A stretch of DNA of 64,000 nt from Vigna angularis (lineage: Eukaryota; Streptophyta; Magnoliopsida; Fabales; Fabaceae), in NCBI RefSeq assembly GCF_016808095.1, contig NC_068974.1, forward strand, positions 4,402,001-4,466,000, given 5' to 3'. The notes beneath the pieces were generated by a model that did not search any database, was not told the origin of the DNA, and was given only the letters and a program-made list of their open reading frames with translations. Position numbers and translations under genes: made by a program. Positions 18,850 through 57,800 of this stretch are shown in pieces. Numbering within the stretch: the first letter of the stretch is position 1; each line of letters begins with the position of its first letter.

Positions 18850-21286
18850 ATGGCGGAAGAAGGACCAACCCCACCTAGAAGAACACTGGGAGACTATGCT
18901 ATGCAACAAGGGCCAAGATATTTTTGTAACATAGTAATACCGTCCACCACCAAAACATTGGAGATGAAGCCAGCTTTCCTTAGCCTAATCAGTTCTCATC
19001 AATTTACTGGAATGGATAATGAAGATCCATATATTAATCTTTCTACGTTCTATGAACTGATAGGAAGTATGGGATTTGAAGAAAGAGATCTTGACCATGT
19101 ATATATATGTGTTTGTTTCCTTTTTCTTTGACATGCAAAGCAAAGGAATGGCTTAAATCACATCCAAACCAGAGTCTGAACAAGTGGAGTGATGTAGAAG
19201 ATAAATTCTTGAATAGATTCTTTCCACCTTCTCGTTACATTAAGGCAAAAACTGAGATTTCTACTTTTAGGTAAGGACCAGATGAGTCATTCTGTGAAGC
19301 TTGGGACCAATTTAATTCTTTATTGAGGAGATGCCCAAATCATGGGTTTGAAGATATTGCTCAACTAAATATTTTCTGCAATGGTCTGAGGCCAAACACA
19401 AAAATGATATTAGATGCAGCAGCTGGAGGAACAATGATGTTTGTAGATGTAGAGCAAGCAACAAGAATCATTGAGGCACTAGCATCTACAGACCATCAAG
19501 CTCAACATAATAGACAAACAATTTAGCGGAAAGGAATGCTTGATCTCAGTACTACAAATACAATTTTAGCTCAGAATAAAATTCTGACTCAGCAGATGGA
19601 AGCATTAACCAAATAGATGGCTAATTTACTTGAGCGGTTAAAAGCAGTACAATCTTCTCCTAGTCAACAACCCATGAGATGTAACTTCTATGAGGTGACC
19701 ATCCCAATGGTCATTGTTCATATCAAAGTAGCCCACAAGAAGGAGAAGTTCAATACGTGAGTAATCAAGGAAGAACGGGTAATTTCTCTAACAACAATAA
19801 CTTTTCACAAGGGTGGAGAAACAATCAAAGTCAGAATTTTGGATGGAAACAAGATGCTGGTCCTTCAAATAGACAACCTCCTTATTAGCATCAACAACAA
19901 AATCTATTTGTGTATGAAAGAACAACCAAATTGGAGGATACTTTAGAAAAATTAATGCAAGCTTCTATGACCAATCAGAAAAATACAGAAGCTTCAATAA
20001 AAAATCTTGAAACACAGGTGGGACAGTTGGCTAAACAACTATCAAATCAACAGGCAGATCATTTTTCAGCCAACACCCAAACTAATCCCAAAGAGCATTG
20101 TAAATCAATTACTACCAAGAGTGGTAAAACTGTGGGAAGAGGGATCGGAGACAATCTAGTTGTGGAGGAGGAAATTTTGGAGAAAAAAGAAAATGAGAAA
20201 GAGAAAAATGAGTGTGAGGAAGAGGAAGAGAAAAATAAAAGTGAGTATGTGAATAAAATAAAAGAAAAAGAAGAAATAAATATAAATGAAGAGAAAAAGA
20301 GGGAGAAAGGTGAGAAACAGGTACCCAGTTGAAGAACCTACCTTACCCTCATAACTCGTCCGAAAGGGATAGGGAAAGGCAATTTGCAAGGTTCATAGAT
20401 ATTTTCAAGAAACTGCAGTTTAATATTCCATTTGTGGAAGCTATAGAGCATATGCCAACTTATGGAAAATTCATGAAAGAGCTCCTAACAAAGAAAAGAA
20501 GATTTTCTGAAGAAAAAGTAGAGCTTGAAGCAGGCTGTAGTGCTATAATCCAAAAATCATTACCTCATAAATCCAAGGACCTTGGAAGTTTCACCATTCC
20601 AGTCACAATCGAGACATTGCTAGTAGGTAAAACATTACTTGATTTGGGTGCTAGTATATTTTTGATGCCTTTGTCCATGCTAAGAAGAATAGGAGATTTG
20701 GAAGTAAGGCCTACATGGATGACATTACAGTTAGTTGATAGATCCATGAAATACCTCTATGGTGTGGCAAAGGATGTCTTAGTTAAAGTTGATAAATTCA
20801 TGTTCCCAGTTGACTTTGTGGTGATGGATATTGAGGAAGATGTTCAAGTTCCTTTGATATTGGGAAGACCTTTTATGAAGACTGCTTAGGTCATTATTGA
20901 TGTTGATGATGGGAAACTAAAGGTCAGAGTGCAGGATGATGAAGTCAACTTTAATGTCTTTGAAGCAATCTAGCACCCTAAAGACAAACAACAATGTTTC
21001 AAAATGGATGTGATAGATGAAATTTGTCTATCAACTAGGAAGCAATTGGCAAAAGCAAGTCCATTGGAGAAAGCTTTAATTGGTGTTTGTGATGAATTGG
21101 AAGAAGAAGATGAGAAGAAAGTTGATGAATATTTGATACACTTGAATTCAGCAGAAGCACTTGCATCGAATGAAATACAATATGAGAAATTACAGCAAGA
21201 AAAGAAAACTGAAAGTCAAAAGTTGGAGTTGAAAGTGTTACCTTCCCATTTAAAATATGTTTTTCTTGCAGATGGAGGTAAGGCAT
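18850..21286 (+). pseudogene. Athila-like gypsy gag and aspartic protease, broken
   Basis: The gag reading frame starts at 18850 (MAEEG...) and matches Athila/Calypso/Cyclops-type gag: GDYAM, ISSHQFTGM and then RCPNHGFEDIAQL (about 19330). It is cut by a stop/frameshift near 19129, a TAG near 19524 and further stops near 19616 and 19885. A GDHPNGHC-like zinc knuckle remnant lies near 19700. The protease region (20329-20889) keeps the active-site-like DLGAS at about 20640 and the ILGRPFM flap-side motif, then stops at 20887. More gag-pro sequence continues in frame 21004-21286, ending near LPSHLKYVFL, which normally leads into reverse transcriptase. RT, RNase H and integrase are absent. This is a dead, 3'-truncated element. 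Confidence 0.88.

Positions 21287-29804: not shown

Positions 29805-29877
<73 letters not shown>
29805..29877. repeat. (TA)n microsatellite abutting the hAT element
   Basis: About 36 TA units beginning inside the right target duplication. Confidence 0.95.
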
Positions 29878-32868
<2,991 letters not shown>

Positions 32869-45800: not shown

Positions 45801-48800
45801 TAAAAAGATACTTGGGAAATATTAGCTGTCTTGTGTTGTTGTCATGCCTTTGTGCGACATTTTGCCTCAGTACGGCCATATCCTTGACAAAAGTTGCAAC
45901 AAGGACGTTGACCATGATATGCACCACGATTTCCATTTCGTCCACCCCGGTAGGAAGATTAGGAATAAAAAGCAGAGGAATCAGTTAGAGGTACATGAGA
46001 ATGACCAAACATGAGAAGTGAAGTCATTGTTCACAAACGATGTCAAAAGATGGAACAACCGTGCCAGATAAGATTTGATTGTGGACAAAGTCTAACTCAG
46101 GAGGAAGTCCAATAAGTGCAAGAACCATAAAAAACTTGCCACATTGTTCAACATGTTTGTCTACATCATTAGTGACTCAATCAACAATTAAGCGATCGAG
46201 TTTCCCAAGATATGTCTTTATATCATGATTTTCCAGCTTCACATTGATAAGGTTGGAGACAACATTGTAAAGGTGATGAACATTGTTGGAGTATACTATT
46301 TTGGCTTTGTTCTACACATCATAATAGGTAGTAAAAGTATGGTATTGAGGCTACAATTTGACATCAATGGAGAACTAGGGAACACTACACAAGGAGGCGT
46401 CGATTTGCATTAATTGGGCTTGATCATTGCGGGGAATGTCTTTGGCTTGTTTGGTCAAGTGGTCGGCATAGCCTTGCCTTGAAACCATAGCTGGAGAGCA
46501 GCAACCCAAGAGCTAGAGTTTCTCGTCCTGGTAAGTTTTTCACATGGAATCAGCAGAACAATGGTAAAAGTAATTGCAGATGGGGTACTTGAATGTGAGC
46601 TTGCAAAAGCCATGGAAAAAGTACCTAAAATGGGCTAAAAAGGGGTGCTTGGGTGTGAGGAAGTAGGCAAAGGGTGTGTCGGCAAATGGGTCATGCTGGA
46701 ACAGTGTGAAAAACGCAAGGGGAGACAGACACATACATGCTAGGAAGAGGCCACGCGTGCGAATGAAGCGCAGTGGTCGTCGAAGGAAGACGGTCTTGAT
46801 TGCTATGGTTACCAGAGGAAAAGGGTGCTATGTGACAGTGAAAAGAGGCACACAATTGTCGCGAGTATTGTTCACCAAAAAAAAAGATCCTAGATCGAAA
46901 CCCTAAACAACTAATACTATATAGAGTTGTATATGTTCTGAATGTATTGTGAGTCTAATCCAGACCACAAGTATGAAATTATACTATTTTATAAAATCAA
47001 TTATAATAAAAATATCTAATAAGTCGAACTCAATCCTACAAAACCAGCTTATAAAGTGAAGTTTGTTCCCACTTATATATTATGAAATCGCATTATCTCT
47101 AGTCGATGTGGAACTTCCAACACACATCCCTCACGCTGAGGTATATACATCTCGTGCATGAGACTAAATATTAATGGGTGGTCCGATAGCATCCAAATAG
47201 CAGATGGAATGATATGCCGAACAAACACAAATTTTGCTAGATATGCTCTAACTCATGACTATCATGTTATGAAGTGTATATGTTTTGAATGTATTGTGTT
47301 TCTAATGCAAACCACACAATATGTAATTATACCATATTACATAATCAATTATAATAAAGACACTTAATAATTAGGAATCAATCATCTTAATTTTCTAGAT
47401 TATGTAATAGTTAATTTCCTACAAATCTGTAACAGCTGATTACATTCTAACAGTTGTTACAGATAAGGATCCACTTCAAGATATTTCACGTTCTTGGGTG
47501 GAAATTTGGCGACTTGAAGAAGTAAAAAACAAAATTTTGTTGCAAGGTCTAGTGCAAAGACTGAATTTGGAGCTATGGTACATGGGGTGTGTGAACTGTT
47601 ATGATTAAAAATTATTTTGAGGGATCTTAAAGTGACATGTGAAGAATCTATGACTCTTTATTGTGATAACCCATAAACTATTAGCATTGATCGCAATCCA
47701 GTTCAACATAATGGAACTAAACATATATAGATAATTGACACTCTATTAAAGAAAAACTTGATAGACGCCTTATCATCACTTTTTATGTCTGTTAGGTTCC
47801 TTTGTTCAGGAAACCAAACAAAACACTCTCTTCTCACAATAACACTTAACAACAGAAGATGAAAGTATGTGTATGTATATTATTGAATCTGTAATGTATA
47901 TAAAGAGAAATACAACTATACGTCCCAAGGAAGCCTCCCTTCCTCCACCGGAAAATATCCAGTCTATACCCACAAGGAAAATATCTGATATTCCTCTCCA
48001 CCTATTTTGTTATTATTTATTGTCAAAACCGTGATTGGAGTGGTATTAATTGGCATAGTGTATTTTAGGAAGTCTTTTATTTAAATGTGCTGTATTTCTG
48101 TAACTGCTGGGTGCTGCCGTTAATAGGCTATTTATGTTTGATTGATCCCGTAATGTTAGGGATTTGTCCAGTAGAATTAGCAGCCCATATTTCCTAAAAT
48201 ATGCTGCTGACTTATGTATACAAATAGAGGTTAACAACCTCATAAGAAATAATAAGAAAGAATTCTATCCTAAATTTGAGATGGTATCAGAGCTCCCGAT
48301 TCTTGGGAGTCTCTGACCGTGTTATTTATTCTAAATCGCAGCCTTTATTGCTGACCTAAAACTGCACCAGCCTTTATTGTTGTGCCATCGTCAAGCCTTC
48401 ATTGCTTATCGTGAGTGCACCTAGTCATGGCTGAAGTGGTGAACCTGGAAACTGGGGACAAAATCCATACGGCTGGAGAACTGCAAAATATCCATTCCGC
48501 TTATAGGTTAGATGGAAAAAACTACCTCAAATGGTCTCAAATTATTAGGACCATACTGAAAGGGAAAGGGAAGATCAGTCACCTGACTGGTAATGCACCA
48601 GATGAGATGGATCCCAAATTCAAGTCATGGGATGAAGAAGACTCCATGATCATGGCGTGGCTGTGGAATTCAATGTTTCCAGAAATCAGTGATACCTGCA
48701 TGTTTCTAAAATCAGCAAGGGAAATCTGGGAGGCAGTAGAACAAACTTACTCTAAGGCCAAGGATGCTGCTCAAATTTATGATGTAAAGGTGAAAACCGT

Positions 48801-51800
48801 GGCTGCCAAACAGGGAGGTAAATCTTTAACGGAATATGCCAATCAACTTAAGTCCCTATGGATGGAATTGGATCACTATCGGGTTATAAAAGCAAAGTGT
48901 TCAGAAGACTCAGCAATTCTAAAAGAGTTTATTGAACAAGATAGGGTCTATGATTTTTTGGTGGGTTTAAATCCTGAATATGACTAGGTCCGAATTCAAA
49001 TCTTGGGAAAGGAGAAAGTCCCAGGGCTAAATGAAGTGGTAGCCATTATTCGGAGTGAAGAAAGCAGAAGAGGGCTGATGCTGGAAACCTCAACCACCGA
49101 AAGCTCTGCAATGATAGCTGAAGGAGGAACAAGTATGGTTGCCAACCAGAAGAAAAACTGGGGTCCTAGTATGGAGAAGAGACATGAGGAGATTTGGTGT
49201 ACCCATTGTAACAAACCACGCCACACCAAGGAAAAGTGCTGGAAATTACATGGAAAGCCCCCAAGCCGAGAATGGGGGCTGAAAGATGGGAAAACCTCAG
49301 GCAGAGAATGGGGATGGAAGGGAGGCCCACAGAAAAAAGGAGGAGGGCAAGCATATATTGCTAATGGACAAGGTGCAGAATCTGTCCAGTTGAATCATGA
49401 AGAGATAGAACGGGTGAGATCCATCCTCAGTAAATTGGAGAAGCCTACAGGTACGTGCTCCTTGACATATTCTGGTAAGGTTCCATTACAGTTTGGACTT
49501 AATGTTTCAGATACACCATTTACACATTACTGGATATTAGACTCTGGAGCCACTGACCATATGACCCCACTACCTAAATACTTCTCCACATATTCCCCAT
49601 GTCCTAGTAACAAGAAAATTTCCACAGCAGATGGAACCCTCATAACTGCAGCCGGACAAGGAGAAGTCCAAATAAGCCCATCCATAACCTTAAAAAATGT
49701 CCTTCATGTCCCTAAATTATCCACCAACCTAATTTCTATACAAAAACTCACTAAAGATCTTGCATGTAATGTTGTTTTTTATAGCAACACTTGTATATTG
49801 CAGGACAAGAACTCGGGGAGGACGATTGGACATGCTAGAGAATGGAATGGCCTATACTACATGGAGGATCCTAATTTGCCTACCAAGAGTCTCATTTCTA
49901 AATCCACCATGACCAATAAAGAGAAGGTTCAACTTTATCATTGCCGGTTAGGACATCCGTCATTTCGAGTTGTGAAAGTACTCTTTCCTTCCTTGTTTAA
50001 AAATTTAAGTGTGGAGAGTCTTCATTGTGAGGTGTGTGAGTTAGCAAAACATAAACGTGTACCGTTTCCCATGAGCAATAAGATGAGTCTTTTCCCATTT
50101 TCTCTTGTTCATACTGATGTATGGGGTCCTGCTTATGTTCCTAATATTTCCGGTGCTAAATGGTTTTTAACATTCATTGATGATTGTACCCGGGTGACTT
50201 GGGTTTTTTTATTGAAACAAAAATCTGAAGTTAGCTCTGTGTTTGTCCAGTTTGTCTCTATGATTAAAAATCAATTTGGGGTCAGTATCAAAAGAATGAG
50301 GTCTGATAATGCCAAGGACTACTTTAATCTTGTACTAAACTCTTTTTGCCAAAAGGAAGGGATAATCCATGAGTCCTCATGTGTGAACACACCTCAACAG
50401 AATGGGATTGCAGAAAGGAAAAATGGTCACCTTTTAGATCAAACTAGAGCTTTACTTTTTCAAAATCATGTTCCTAAAAGATTTTGGGGGGAAGCCCTTC
50501 TTACCGCCACTTATCTAATCAATAGACTACCTACTAGGGTTTTAAACTCAAAAAGTCCCATGGAAGTTCTATCCTCATTCTACCCACACCTTGACCCTAC
50601 AAATAAACTCCAACCTAGAATATTTGGGTGTGTATCCTTTGTACATGTTCATAGTAATGAAAGGGGGAAATTGGATCCTAGAGCTATCAAATGTGTTTTC
50701 TTAGGATACTCTACCACTCAAAAAGGGTACAAATGTTTTCAACCCGGTTCAAAACGATTCTATGTGTCCAGAGATGTCACCTTTAATGAACAAGAGAGCT
50801 ATTTCAAACAGCCTCATCTTCAGGGGGAGAATGTTAGAGAGGAAGATGAGACTCTCATGTTCCCAAACATGATGTTTGGGCCTGAAACTGGGACAAATGG
50901 CAGCATTGTTGCTGAACCTGTGAGATCTGCACCTGATGGTGGTGGTGGCAAATTTGGAAAGGTATACTCAAGGAGAGAAAAGGCCATTCTGGAATCTAGC
51001 AATGTCCAAGAATCCAACCCACCATCACTACATGAGGTAACACCTTCAAATCCTATAAATTTTGATAATCCTATAAATTTTGATAATTCTAATGAGTTTG
51101 TGTCTGAAAATCTAGAAGCACAGGTGGACCAAACCCTTGATCTACCCATTGCCCTTAGAAAGGGAACTAGAACTTGCACCCAACAGCCACTTTACCCACT
51201 ATCAAATTTCGTATCCTTTGAAAAATTCTCACCTACCCATAAAACCTTTCTCACTAACCTCAACTCCACACACACACCTTCCTCTGTATCTGAAGCATTG
51301 TCTGACAGGAAATGGAAAAATGCCATGGATGTGGAAATGGAGGCGTTAAACAAGAATAGGACCTGGGAACTTGTCACCCTACCTCCTGGAAAAAAACCAG
51401 TGGGATGTAAGTGGGTATATGCAATAAAGTATAGGGCTGATGGGACAATTGAACGGTACAAGGCAAGGTTGGTGGCCAAAGGCTTCACTCAAACCTATGG
51501 AGTTGATTACTTGGAGACATTTGCCCCGGTTGCTAAGATGAACACGGTCAGAGTATTATTATCACTAGCAGCAAATAATGACTGGGATCTGCAACAGTTT
51601 GATGTGAAGAATGCATTTTTACATGGAGACCTTGAAGAAGAAATATACATGGAGTTGCCCCCTGGTTACAAGGAACAGGTTGCTGCTGGAACTGTTTGCA
51701 AATTAAGAAAGGCTCTATATGGGCTGAAACAATCTCCAAGAGCATGGTTTGGAAGATTTACCAAAGTAATGACAGGTCTAGGCTACAAACAGAGCCAAGG

Positions 51801-54800
51801 GGATCACACATTATTTATCAAACATTCGGCTTCAGGGGGAGTAACAATTCTATTAGTGTATGTAGATGATATTATAGTGAGTGGGGACGACAAAAGGGAA
51901 CAACAAGTGTTAAGCGAATGTCTTGCCAAGGAATTTGAAATCAAGACACTAGGAAGGCTTAAATATTTTTTGGGAATTGAAGTGGCTCATTCTAAGAAAG
52001 GAATCTTCATATCTCAACAAAAATATATTACAGACTTGCTTAGAGAAACAGGGAAGACAGGCTGTAGACCAGCGAGTACTCCAGTTGATCCAAATATAAA
52101 ATTGGGAAGTATGGAGGATGATATTGCTGTGGACAGGGAAATGTATCAAAGACTTGTGGGCAGACTTATTTACTTATCGCACACTAGACCAGACATTGCG
52201 TTTGCTGTAAGTCTAGTCAGCCAGTTTATGCACCAACCAAAGGAAGCACATCTACAAGCTGCTCTTAGAATTGTCCAGTACTTGAAAGGGACCGCTGGAA
52301 GAGGGATTTTGTTCAAACGGAACAAGAGTGTAAGCCTTGAAGCATATACGGATGCAGACTATGCTGGGTCAGTGGTAGATAGGAGATCAACCACAGGATA
52401 CTACACCTTCCTTGGTGGAAACTTGGTGACTTGGAAGAGTAAAAAACAGAGTGTAGTGGCTAGATCAAGTGTTGAAGCCGAATTTCGAGCAATGGCCCAC
52501 GGAATATGTGAACTTTTATGGCTGAAGATTATATTGGAAGACTTGAAGATAAAGTGGGATGAACCTATGAGGCTATATTCTGACAATAAATCTACAATTA
52601 GCATAGCCCATAACCCGGTGCAGCATGATAGAACCAAACATATTGAAGTTGATAGACACTTTATAAAGGAAAAGCTAGACAGTGGCATGATTTGCACACC
52701 ATATGTATCTACTCAGAACCAACTTGCAGACATACTCACCAAGGGACTGAATTGCATTAACTTTGAAGGAATTGTCTCCAAGCTGGGAATGGAAAATACC
52801 TATTCATCAGCTTGAGGGGGAGTGTCAAAACCGTGATTGGAGTGGTATTAATTGGCATAGTGTATTTTAGGAAGTCTTTTATTTAAATGTGCTGTATTTC
52901 TGTAACTGCTGGGTGCTGCCGTTAATAGGCTATTTATGTTTGATTGATCCCGTAATGTTAGGGATTTGTCCAGTAGAATTAGCAGCCCATATTTCCTAAA
53001 ATATGCTGCTGACTTATGTATACAAATAGAGGTTAACAACCTCATAAGAAATAATAAGAAAGAATTCTATCCTAAATTTGAGATTTATACTCTCCCTCTC
53101 TCTACTAACAACTAACTTCTTTTATTCCTAACATTACCTACCCCTCAAAATCAACCTTGTCCTCAAGGTTGAAGTCAGGGAACTGTTATTTGATGCAAGG
53201 CTCCTCTTCCCAGGTGGCGTGCGCCCTCCAATTCAAATCTGGAGGCTTGGGTGGTGGCAAATCCTCCTCCACTGTCTTCCCTTCTTCCTGGATTCTATTA
53301 ATTTCCAACATTTCATAAATGGTTTTAGTAAGGGAGGATTCCACTAAAACCTTGCTAAAGAAAGCTATGGGCCTTACGCTAAACTGCCTCCAATCTCCTT
53401 TAATTTATCCTAGGGTTGCCAAATAGGTAGCTCCTAAATTCACATCTAGCATGTATTCCACCACCTCTTTCCTCAGTGGTGGCTCTGCCCTGCTCAACCT
53501 CATTGACACAATCTGGATAGCCTGAGGCCTAAGACTGTCTACATAGACAGAGGATGTAGACAAAGGATGTGTGTAGTGCATCTTTGGCAACAAAGGCTGT
53601 GTGTACATAGACAACATGTTTATCACAGATAAGCTTGTGAACCTTACAGCTAATTGCAGCTCTCCCATTTTCTTCATACCAGAATTATGCAGTACTAAAA
53701 GAGGATAAGAGTGTGTGTACACTCTATCAGCTTCAAGAGTGGACAGCCTAATTCTCACCTTCCCTATTCTTGAATACTTTGATGCCCTTGATTTCTCTCC
53801 AACATGTAAATGACCATTATCATGGACCCCTACTGTGATAACAGTACATGGATCAAAAACCTCCCAAATGTATTGCCCATTCTACCTAGTCTTCATTAGC
53901 ATCAACCCTTGTGCACTTATAATCCCCAGTTCTAGAATTCCAATGCTGGCCTTCCATAGTTGCTTTGCTATTGGCCTAAGATCACTACTGTAGTGAGTTG
54001 ATTCATCGAGCACATGGTAGCCACCTTCCAAGCAAACCCTCAAGTGTATCCTACTTGAGAACTTGGTCTCTTTCTTCTTTTCCCCTTCAACAACCACATG
54101 TTTTTCAAGGTTAAACCACCTTGTGTTCACAGGCTTATGGTCAAACCTCCTCTGCACATTGTGTAAAGGAATGACACACCTTCCCAGGATTTCATCTTTG
54201 TTTGGACTAGCCCTATCTTCTGTAGTCAGAACCAAAGGCTCCTCAAATGGCTCAGCAACAACAAACATCAAGTCCTCATTCCACATGGGATTTATGGTTT
54301 TACTCTGAGATGCTCTAATTCTTGAAAATTGATTTCCCAGATTGGCCTTCACAAAAACTTCAGGATATCGGGTTTTGTCACTTGGTATCAAGTCTTGAGC
54401 CTCAATAACATTGACCCTGACATACCAAAGCTTAGGTGAAAGGTAAACCTTTGATCTTATGTTTGCAATAGCCTCAGGACCAACAGTTGCTGCATCAGAA
54501 TGCCATGCATCAAGAAATGCCTCGTCTGCTTGAGTTCCCATCCAAACTGCCAACATTAACTCTCCCTTGGCTTTCTCACCTCTCCTGTCTTCTAGTATGT
54601 ACCACTGTGAAGCCAAAGGACTATTTGGTGGCACACGTTTTGGGATTTCATTCAGATCAAACATCACTCTCCCTACAAAGTCATCCACAGCAACATCTTT
54701 GTCTTTCACTACCACCTCTAGAAGAGAAGCTTGAATCCTTTCTTTGGAGAAGGCAAAAACATGATTCCACTAAGGATTGGACTTTTTCTCAAAGTGCTTG

Positions 54801-57800
54801 GTGAGGCCCTTGTACTTTCCAAGCTTCACTTCAATATAAGGATCCACACCACCAGTAATAATGCTAACTCCAAGATTGACAGAGACAGAAGGTGAGGAGT
54901 GATCTGGTTTTTCCGATGCTTGCGGCACCAGAATTTCCAACTCCTAGATGTCCTCGTCGACGCTTTCCTCCTGTCGCTCCGCTGCCAGCTCCTCACAAAC
55001 GGTACCCCGATTTAATCCGCCAAACCTCCGCGTCAGAGCATCGGTGAACATCTTCCAAGTTGGATGCGTGGTTTTCTTCCGCCAGAGGCGGAACCAAAAA
55101 CTCGCTAAACCTCCCTCCATGCATCTATAGACGAGCTTCATCTTCTCCTTCTCCGTCACACTTTGGAGGTCGAAGAGTTTCTCTGCCTGTGCGATCCAGC
55201 CCATGGGATCCCCACCTTCAAATGTAGGTAGTTCAACGCGCTTCCTCCAACTGCGTCGAACTTCTCCTCTATCATCTTCCGATTCCTCCTCCCAGTTTTC
55301 CGGCGGTCGTTGTTCGCGTCCAACATTGACAGAATCACGTCTTCCTTCGGAGCTCCGATGCTGGTTCCTGGTTCGTCATTCTCAAGTGCGGCCAAACGCT
55401 TGGAATTCGCGAGTTACCGCTCTCATCTCCGCTTTCAACTCTTCTACTGTCGATTCAATCGCGATCAACCTTCCCTCCATTCTTCTTGTTAGGTTCCTCC
55501 GATACAAATTCGTTTGCTCCTCCGATACAGATCCGGCAAGTCAGACCAACTTGTTAGGTTCTTTTGTTCAGAAAACCAAATAGAATACTCTCTTCTCACA
55601 ATAACACTTAACAACAAAAGATGAAAGTATGTGTATGTATATTATTGAATCTGTATTGTATATAAAGAGAAATACAATTATACGTCCCAAGGAAGCCTCC
55701 CTTCCTCCACTGAAAAATGTCCCGTCTATACCCACAAGGAAAATATCTTATATTCCTCTCTCCACCTATTCTGTTATTATTTATACTCTCCCTCTCTCTA
55801 CTAACAGCTAACTTCTTTTATTTCTAACAATGTCCCATTTGGTCTTCCCATTGGACGATTTCATGATCTCACATGTAAGTTTGGAATAATATATATCCAT
55901 TCACTAGCATGAGCGGAGTGTTGATTAGGGAGAAAACTTAGTTGATAAGCTACAATAGGATATTGTAATTAATTACAAGTCTGCTGTTAGAAGTTAGAAG
56001 ATTCTAGAGATGTCTTTGTAATCATTGCTTCATGATTAAAGTTCTCTATATAGAGCTTGATGTACTGTTAAAAACATGATCTCACATGTAAGTTTGGAAT
56101 AATATATATCCATTCACTAGCATGAGCGGAGTGTTGATTAGGGAGAAAACTTAGTTGATAAGCTACAATAGGATATTGTAATTAATTACAAGTCTGCTGT
56201 TAGAAGTTAGAAGATTCTAGAGATGTCTTTGTAATCATTGCTTCATGATTAAAGTTCTCTATATAGAGCTTGATGTACTGTTAAAAACTTGAATTCAATA
56301 AAATATTCTCATATCCAGTTTAACATTTAACCCACCTAGAAATGGGAGGATACCAGCTAACTAGAATGTTGTTTTCTTAGATTTTTGGGAAATAATTACA
56401 TGAAATTTGTTTATTATCAGTTGATTGTTTTCAACCTTGAGGATATACTTATTTGGACAATGGGAAAGGGGAAGCTAGTTGACACTAGGATACTGATTAG
56501 TTAGTTTGAGTTGATGAGTTAAAATTGGGCAGCAGAAGATGGGGTGGGACGGGGGGAAGGCTGGGTGGTTAGGTGGCGAGAGGTGAGGGAGGAATGTCCA
56601 TTTTGTAGATTGAAGGTGAGGGAGGAATGTTCATTTTGTTGATTGAGCATTAGCTTTTTGTGAAAGGAGAAAGCCTCTGTGAAGAGGAACTTGGAAGGGC
56701 CCCCTTTTTTCTCATTCGTTTCATCCTATTTAGTATACGTATTTATTTTTTCTTTTTCCAATCCCGAGTTCGTTACTCGTGAGACCATGAATGATTTCCC
56801 TATGTCTATAGGTTTACACCAAGGGTTTCTTATTCCTTTTGTTTTGGTTTTGAATGTTCGTATGTTATGATCATATCTAGGAGTTTGTAGCTTAATGCAT
56901 GTTTTTTGCACAAGATGTGTTTCTAAAGGAGTTGGGAGATGGAATTGATGGTAAACTAGAGTATTGGGAAGCTTAGGAATCACTTGGTTTCCATTTAAGT
57001 AGAAGCAGAATGGGGCATATATATGGAATGCATGTCCAACCTGATGCACGATAGCATTGGCTTTGAGGTGAAAATTGGATATAAGACATCCCAAGTCACA
57101 GTTTAGTTATTTTGGATAAATGACAGAAAATCAGGGAGATGCTGAAAATATGATTCTGAGTTGCTTGGATCAATTTCGTTTATATACTTCGGCACACGAA
57201 TGGAAATATGTTCTAAAATTCTTAGAGAAAGTTATGATTCAATTGCCCCTCACGCAAGATTAAAAACAAAGTGCTGTTGCTTCCAAATTTCATTAGTAAA
57301 CTGCCGGAAATAAAAAAAAAAATTGTCTTTGTGTTTCGGTAATTATACTAATTATCATGGTAAACTTGTTTGCGGTGTGTTTTGAAATGTAACAACCCCC
57401 GCCGTCCTTTTTGATTTAGCAGGATCTGTCCAAAGAGCCAGTTCAGAATCTGCTTTCAGCTTTAGCAGAACTCCAAAGGCAGGTTGATAAGGCTGATGCA
57501 GTTGTAGAGCAAAAGGAAGAGGAATATATTGAGTTGAGGGAACAGCTAAAACAGTCTGAGAGAAAGAGGATTGAATATGAGACAAAAATGAAGTCAATGG
57601 AGGAGGCTTGGCAAAAGCAGATGGCATCTTTGCAAGTAAGTTTTCAGTTCAGACAAGCATTCAAGTTTTTTGACACATGAATGTTATTTTAATGGATGCA
57701 ACTGATTGGTTGATCCAAACTTTTGACTAGTACTATATATGTACCTGTAGTTTACATGAACAAGTTATTCTGATAAAAAAAACTCGGCTAGGAGACACCA

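Follow-up and report, generated by a model that had tools for sequence, protein, structure and literature searches.

Long terminal repeat (LTR) retrotransposons of plants may carry pieces of host genes between their repeats. Bs1 of maize, which is without most of pol, is the described system closest to the locus considered here. Host gene fragments lie within this LTR element (PMC7264820), and a further account reports that three of them are fused to gag and that the chimera is expressed at the protein level (PMC8616336). Captures of this general kind are numerous: 672 LTR-captured genes are counted in rice and 1343 in sorghum, neutral pseudogenes making up a higher share of those in rice (PMC3726574). 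Transduced sequences in such elements occur in one or few copies (PMC7264820), and one route described for such events is a template switch at microsimilarities from the RNA of the element to an mRNA packaged with it, or the reverse (PMC5408686). Element C, the subject of this report, lies in a stretch of 64,000 nucleotides from Vigna angularis (contig NC_068974.1, positions 4,402,001 to 4,466,000, forward strand), here called the window, in whose coordinates all positions are given. It is probably a non-autonomous Ty3-like LTR element that took up part of an FTIP/MCTP gene from a legume and then decayed, an ordinary capture as in Bs1.

The features of the Bs1 kind found in element C are two LTRs with a target duplication, a host gene fragment, and an in-frame joint to gag that now carries five premature stops. 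Most of pol is lost; the C2 block derived from MCTP occupies the place expected for protease and reverse transcriptase, on the gag strand. Bs1 holds three fragments and its protein is reported as expressed, whereas element C holds one MCTP fragment and has five stops. The rice and sorghum captures are likewise host coding sequences between two LTRs, from which element C differs in its legume host, its C2/MCTP donor and its in-frame joint to a truncated gag. Among the titles and abstract openings listed in the literature search, mostly outside subscription journals, none named the capture of an MCTP or C2 sequence by a plant retrotransposon. The coding region of element C is made up as follows.

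54914..55480, minus strand: gag frame, consisting of the N-terminal part and the first part of the capsid domain, with stops at 55384, 55378 and 54946 (tblastn of eight gag relatives, P0122-P0129, all matching)
54851..54913, minus strand: tail of 21 codons, not ordinary gag, common to Vigna mungo protein P0127 (local score 57)
53441..54856, minus strand: fragment captured from an MCTP/FTIP gene, corresponding approximately to residues 58-558 of protein P0002, with stops at 54772 and 53884
53882..53890, minus strand: point at which the last C2 domain has lost 93 nt in frame, adjoining TAG 53884 (alignment with seven full-length MCTPs)
53134..53440, minus strand: 3' remnant in the same frame, with scraps resembling RNase H and the end of integrase and, between these and the 3' LTR, a polypurine-like stretch

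The start of gag, the 21-codon tail and the MCTP fragment all fall in one minus-strand frame of 691 codons, which runs from ATG 55480 to TAA 53405 and contains five premature stops (TGA 55384, TGA 55378, TAG 54946, TAG 54772 and TAG 53884). The same frame runs on through the pol-like scraps to TAG 53140, with TAA at 53407 and 53188. These scraps, which we take from their motifs to be RNase H-like and integrase-end-like, have no Pfam or PDB match, and a family search at E up to 10 with the open piece 53189-53404 matched nothing. An earlier note on this DNA had put gag and the C2 sequence in a common minus-strand frame, and this holds. The same note had given the frame about 650 codons, a gag start at about 55365 and three TAG interruptions; the frame is indeed single, yet it is 691 codons long, starts at ATG 55480, with two TGA (55384 and 55378) upstream of the claimed start, and has five stops in all (two TGA and three TAG). 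Because the gag relatives align in one frame with element C from 55495 onward (tblastn), both TGA codons fall within gag. A frameshifted 5' part of gag was considered and rejected, the relatives giving a single frame from the ATG. Homology of the gag and C2 parts is far beyond chance; a common frame of these two alone would occur by chance in one case in three. The 2076 nt of frame are without a frameshift and the LTR pair has one 2-nt gap, events too few for a conclusion.

Plant MCTP genes are often intronless, so that a lack of donor introns in the block would not tell a spliced mRNA from genomic DNA as its source. The C2 domains of element C are recognized by Pfam (E 1.8e-28 for a 295-codon piece), and the best MCTP match of the block is P0002 of Sphenostylis stenocarpa (E 3.6e-274), with 86% identity over aligned residues (82% in the search table); the MCTP identity proposed in the earlier note is thereby confirmed. 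Of 7990 candidates scored in the protein search, 1888 had an E value of 0.001 or lower. The best 120 of these all carry C2 and PRT_C, with no gag fusion by listed domains; the candidates were of about 270-859 residues only, so that shorter copies would escape. Compared with seven full-length MCTPs, the block starts within the first C2 domain, includes the middle one whole and ends before the membrane region. The last C2 lacks 31 residues in frame and further on has gained two. Since C2 is present and the C-terminal transmembrane region (PRT_C) is absent, both by Pfam and in the MCTP alignment, the captured piece is a fragment of an MCTP and not a member of the family. It shares the C2 repeat sequence of plant MCTP/FTIP proteins; missing are their N terminus and entire C-terminal membrane region, along with parts of both the first and the last C2. 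Complete C2 domains had been supposed, of which only the middle one is whole; MCTP sequence had also been read from 54880, whereas the similarity starts at about 54856 and the preceding codons match a Vigna gag-tail protein instead. FTIP1 binds its partner through the C2 domain closest to the membrane region (PMC6680132); the counterpart of that domain is the damaged one in element C.

The gag part matches Ty3_capsid with E 5.3e-4 and 19.9 bits, below the Pfam cut-off of 29.1 bits. Among the relatives, P0122 and P0128 lie above the cut-off and P0127 below it. The gag search, with 143 residues, found eight proteins among 17 candidates scored, six of the eight being named as Vigna. These six (P0122, P0123, P0125-P0127 and P0129) form a Ty3-like gag family, 59-78% identical to element C over the aligned parts; P0127 has the tail of element C, and a C2 domain is listed for none of them. 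P0122, a Vigna gag of 251 residues, aligns to element C through residue 167, and its domain matches reach further, Retrotrans_gag to residue 184 and Ty3_capsid to 210. The capsid region thus continues in P0122 beyond the end of the alignment, from which it follows that the gag of element C is cut inside the capsid domain and was not retained whole, as had been assumed. A shortened capsid, or RNA matching MCTP, could have made the chimera an interfering one that lowered transposition or MCTP expression, for example via small RNAs. Truncated gag p22 can restrict transposition of yeast Ty1 (PMC4599808), and unique small RNAs map to 85 of the captured genes in rice and 812 in sorghum (PMC3726574); with these precedents in its favour, we still hold an interfering role for element C to be highly improbable.

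The 21 codons that follow gag are informative about the capture point. Against the end of P0127, the Vigna mungo protein of V8G54_006715, they score 57, a value reached by none of 20,000 shuffles, and against ordinary gag only 12 (P0122) and 11 (P0128). The N termini of P0002 and P0003 give scores of 25 and 23, with 241 and 583 of 5000 shuffles as high; one of these matches is off register and the other lies past the joint, so the tail is not clearly MCTP. P0127 aligns with element C along gag and the tail as far as 54851, then has eight different residues and ends, at the point where MCTP similarity begins in element C. As P0127 has both parts, a truncated gag plus tail is present in at least one other element.

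The boundaries of the whole insertion, within which these parts lie, are given by the following features.

47790..55829, minus strand: element C, whole insertion, with an LTR pair and GACAT on both sides; interrupted by a nested copia element at 48021-53083
55830..55834, minus strand: target-site duplication GACAT, 5' side
47785..47789, minus strand: target-site duplication GACAT, 3' side
55552..55829, minus strand: 5' LTR, 278 bp, TG...CA
53085..53133, minus strand: 3' LTR, first piece, 47 of 49 positions identical to the 5' LTR
47790..48020, minus strand: 3' LTR, second piece, 217 of 233 aligned positions identical, with one 2-nt gap
48021..53083, plus strand: nested Ty1/copia element splitting the 3' LTR, with RVT_2, rve and gag domains

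Both the LTRs with their 5-bp duplication and the nested copia had been claimed earlier, and both are present. The LTR pair differs by 16 substitutions in 278 compared positions and one 2-nt gap (about 94% identity), a count in which the three bases doubled by the copia insertion enter twice. The Kimura two-parameter (K2P) divergence is 0.061. At substitution rates of 1.3e-8 and 6.1e-9 per site per year, this dates element C to about 2.3 or 5 million years. The copia LTR repeats (48021-48282 and 52823-53084) are identical over 262 nt, so the nested element is younger than element C. TTTAT flanks it on both sides, provided that its LTR ends at 53083, and its pol piece has 1275 codons with RVT_2 and rve. 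Between 48415 and 52812 the gag and pol pieces of this copia stand in one frame with a single stop codon between them.

The divergence of the LTRs allows the decay of the C2 block to be assessed. It differs from P0002 in 52 of 468 compared columns. At positions on which four or more of five legume MCTPs agree, the block has 35 private residues, the like count for each of the five MCTPs being 5 to 20. With a K2P of 0.061, the number of amino-acid changes expected in 468 codons from neutral decay since insertion is 27 (15-44); the 35 include any changes from the donor lineage, to which part of them must belong. From this agreement, a long stay in the element before insertion is not required, and constraint afterwards is not indicated. 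Of 21 private residues, 11 are at columns with an invariance of 98% or more, which is chance-like, 253 of the 461 columns being invariant (X positions and columns of fewer than 100 residues excluded). In 120 ordinary MCTPs, 83 of 231 private residues are in invariant columns (Fisher p 0.16 against 11 of 21). The substitutions are thus about what neutral decay predicts: they appear to lie in the direction of no constraint, the contrast with intact genes not being significant.

These results bear on the proposal that the gag-C2 fusion was translated and used, targeting to the plasma membrane or plasmodesmata shifting the site of particle formation to the advantage of the element. A single frame takes in the gag, tail and C2 parts together with the 3' scraps, and both size changes relative to MCTP are multiples of three. 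C2 modules of MCTPs dock to the plasma membrane via anionic lipids (PMC6680132), and the gag-host chimera of Bs1 is reported to be expressed as protein (PMC8616336). Set against this are a gag without the end of its capsid domain and all beyond, a truncated first C2, a last C2 minus 31 residues, substitutions that look unconstrained (if not significantly so) and five stops in the frame. We consider use of the fusion very unlikely, and membrane targeting of the particle by it is a guess.

Several observations weigh against a capture by the element before integration, and some of them could point to a separate event. (i) None of the protein relatives seen is a further copy that includes the C2 block, P0127 having gag and tail only. 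(ii) P0127 itself is a gene model with unusual gaps, lacking 17 residues at one place and 12 at another in the tblastn alignment; its end may be a splicing artefact, as the gaps fit a gene model with false introns, and C2 sequence might lie hidden in a predicted intron at that locus. (iii) Two would be the expected number of stops since insertion, and there are five (P 0.049 for the point estimate of divergence, and 0.006-0.22 across its range). With this excess some stops may predate insertion, unless methylation sped decay. (iv) The edges of the C2 block (54881-54858 and 53444-53421) are alike without gaps in 16 of 24 bases, a score matched by three of 200 shuffles and the best of three lengths tried; shorter windows give 13 of 18 bases (18 of 200 shuffles as high) and 9 of 12 (134 of 200). 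Such similarity could go back to a separate insertion whose duplication is by now very old.

The last point concerns the alternative that the earlier note had itself set against capture, a later insertion of the MCTP sequence with its own duplication. In a broader form, the MCTP piece would have arrived by a separate insertion or repair event (a retrocopy, a pack-type transposon or a patch), before or after integration. The absence of C2 from P0127 and from every other copy seen favours such an event, as does the ungapped likeness of the edges. A gapped comparison of the same edges, however, found no clear duplication and nothing above chance (the score of 16.0 equals the mean of the shuffles, 249 of 500 being as high). 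At 67% identity the edges are much less alike than the LTRs at 94%, making a target duplication produced after integration unlikely. In addition, strand and frame are the same on both sides of the block, and a second event would be needed for the loss of most of pol. A separate arrival is therefore quite unlikely in our estimation. Both edge stretches encode V-N-L-G in the shared frame, and their similarity may be due to chance, to an older duplication or to homology used in capture.

Capture by the element itself is supported by the position of the C2 block between gag and the scraps that are pol-like by their motifs, on the same strand and in the same frame, by GACAT outside both LTRs, by edges that are at chance in the gapped test, by the gag-tail joint of P0127 and by an amount of amino-acid change in the block close to that expected from neutral decay since insertion. 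The course of events would be as follows. (i) Gag had probably already been shortened and joined to the short tail. (ii) A host mRNA would have been packaged in the particle, where reverse transcriptase switched template at a few matching bases. The protein alignments of tail and MCTP overlap by two codons around 54856-54851, which fits template switching at a microsimilarity. (iii) A piece of a legume FTIP/MCTP mRNA would thus have been taken up before integration, replacing most of pol. (iv) The chimeric copy would have been reverse transcribed and integrated with enzymes supplied in trans by an intact relative. (v) The gag-C2 frame was perhaps open at that time and would have decayed since. 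Judged from the nucleotide and protein comparisons, the capture is real, well bounded and ordinary in kind. The MCTP donor and its in-frame joint to a truncated gag are particular to element C, and what is new is a Vigna mungo protein, P0127, that appears to have the same gag plus tail up to the codon where MCTP begins and to differ thereafter.

Other searches were less informative. With residues 1-40 across the junction, a protein search considered three candidates, none at E up to 10; it is insensitive, since P0127, which shares the tail, was not returned, and it is not counted as a negative. Neither the C2 block nor the gag piece nor P0122 found a relative in three scans of viral contigs, which says little about plants. 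Elsewhere in the window, a 213-bp unit occurs twice in tandem at 55862-56287, in identical copies that start 28 bp outside the target duplication of element C. The segment 42972-43163 is about 75% similar to the element C LTR in opposite orientation and is perhaps an older or related element. An open frame at 20314-20886 has a weak aspartyl protease match (E 7.8e-4, below cut-off) and is perhaps a remnant of another retrotransposon. Two self-complementary segments of about 72-82 nt (29805-29885 and 31777-31864), which match one another without mismatch over 72-74 nt, are probably simple repeats.

Element C provides a dated capture of a host gene in which both joints are readable and a second Vigna protein brackets the capture point. 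It is conceivable, though the least probable of all the proposals considered here, that a small non-autonomous Vigna family spread while its gag-C2 frame was open, and that the protein made from this frame docked at plasmodesmata or the plasma membrane. If so, the membrane-targeting domain of a plant retroelement would have been taken from the tether that the cell itself has at plasmodesmata. Should an open, multi-copy gag-C2 form exist in Vigna, the borrowing of membrane-targeting modules by retroelements would become directly testable.

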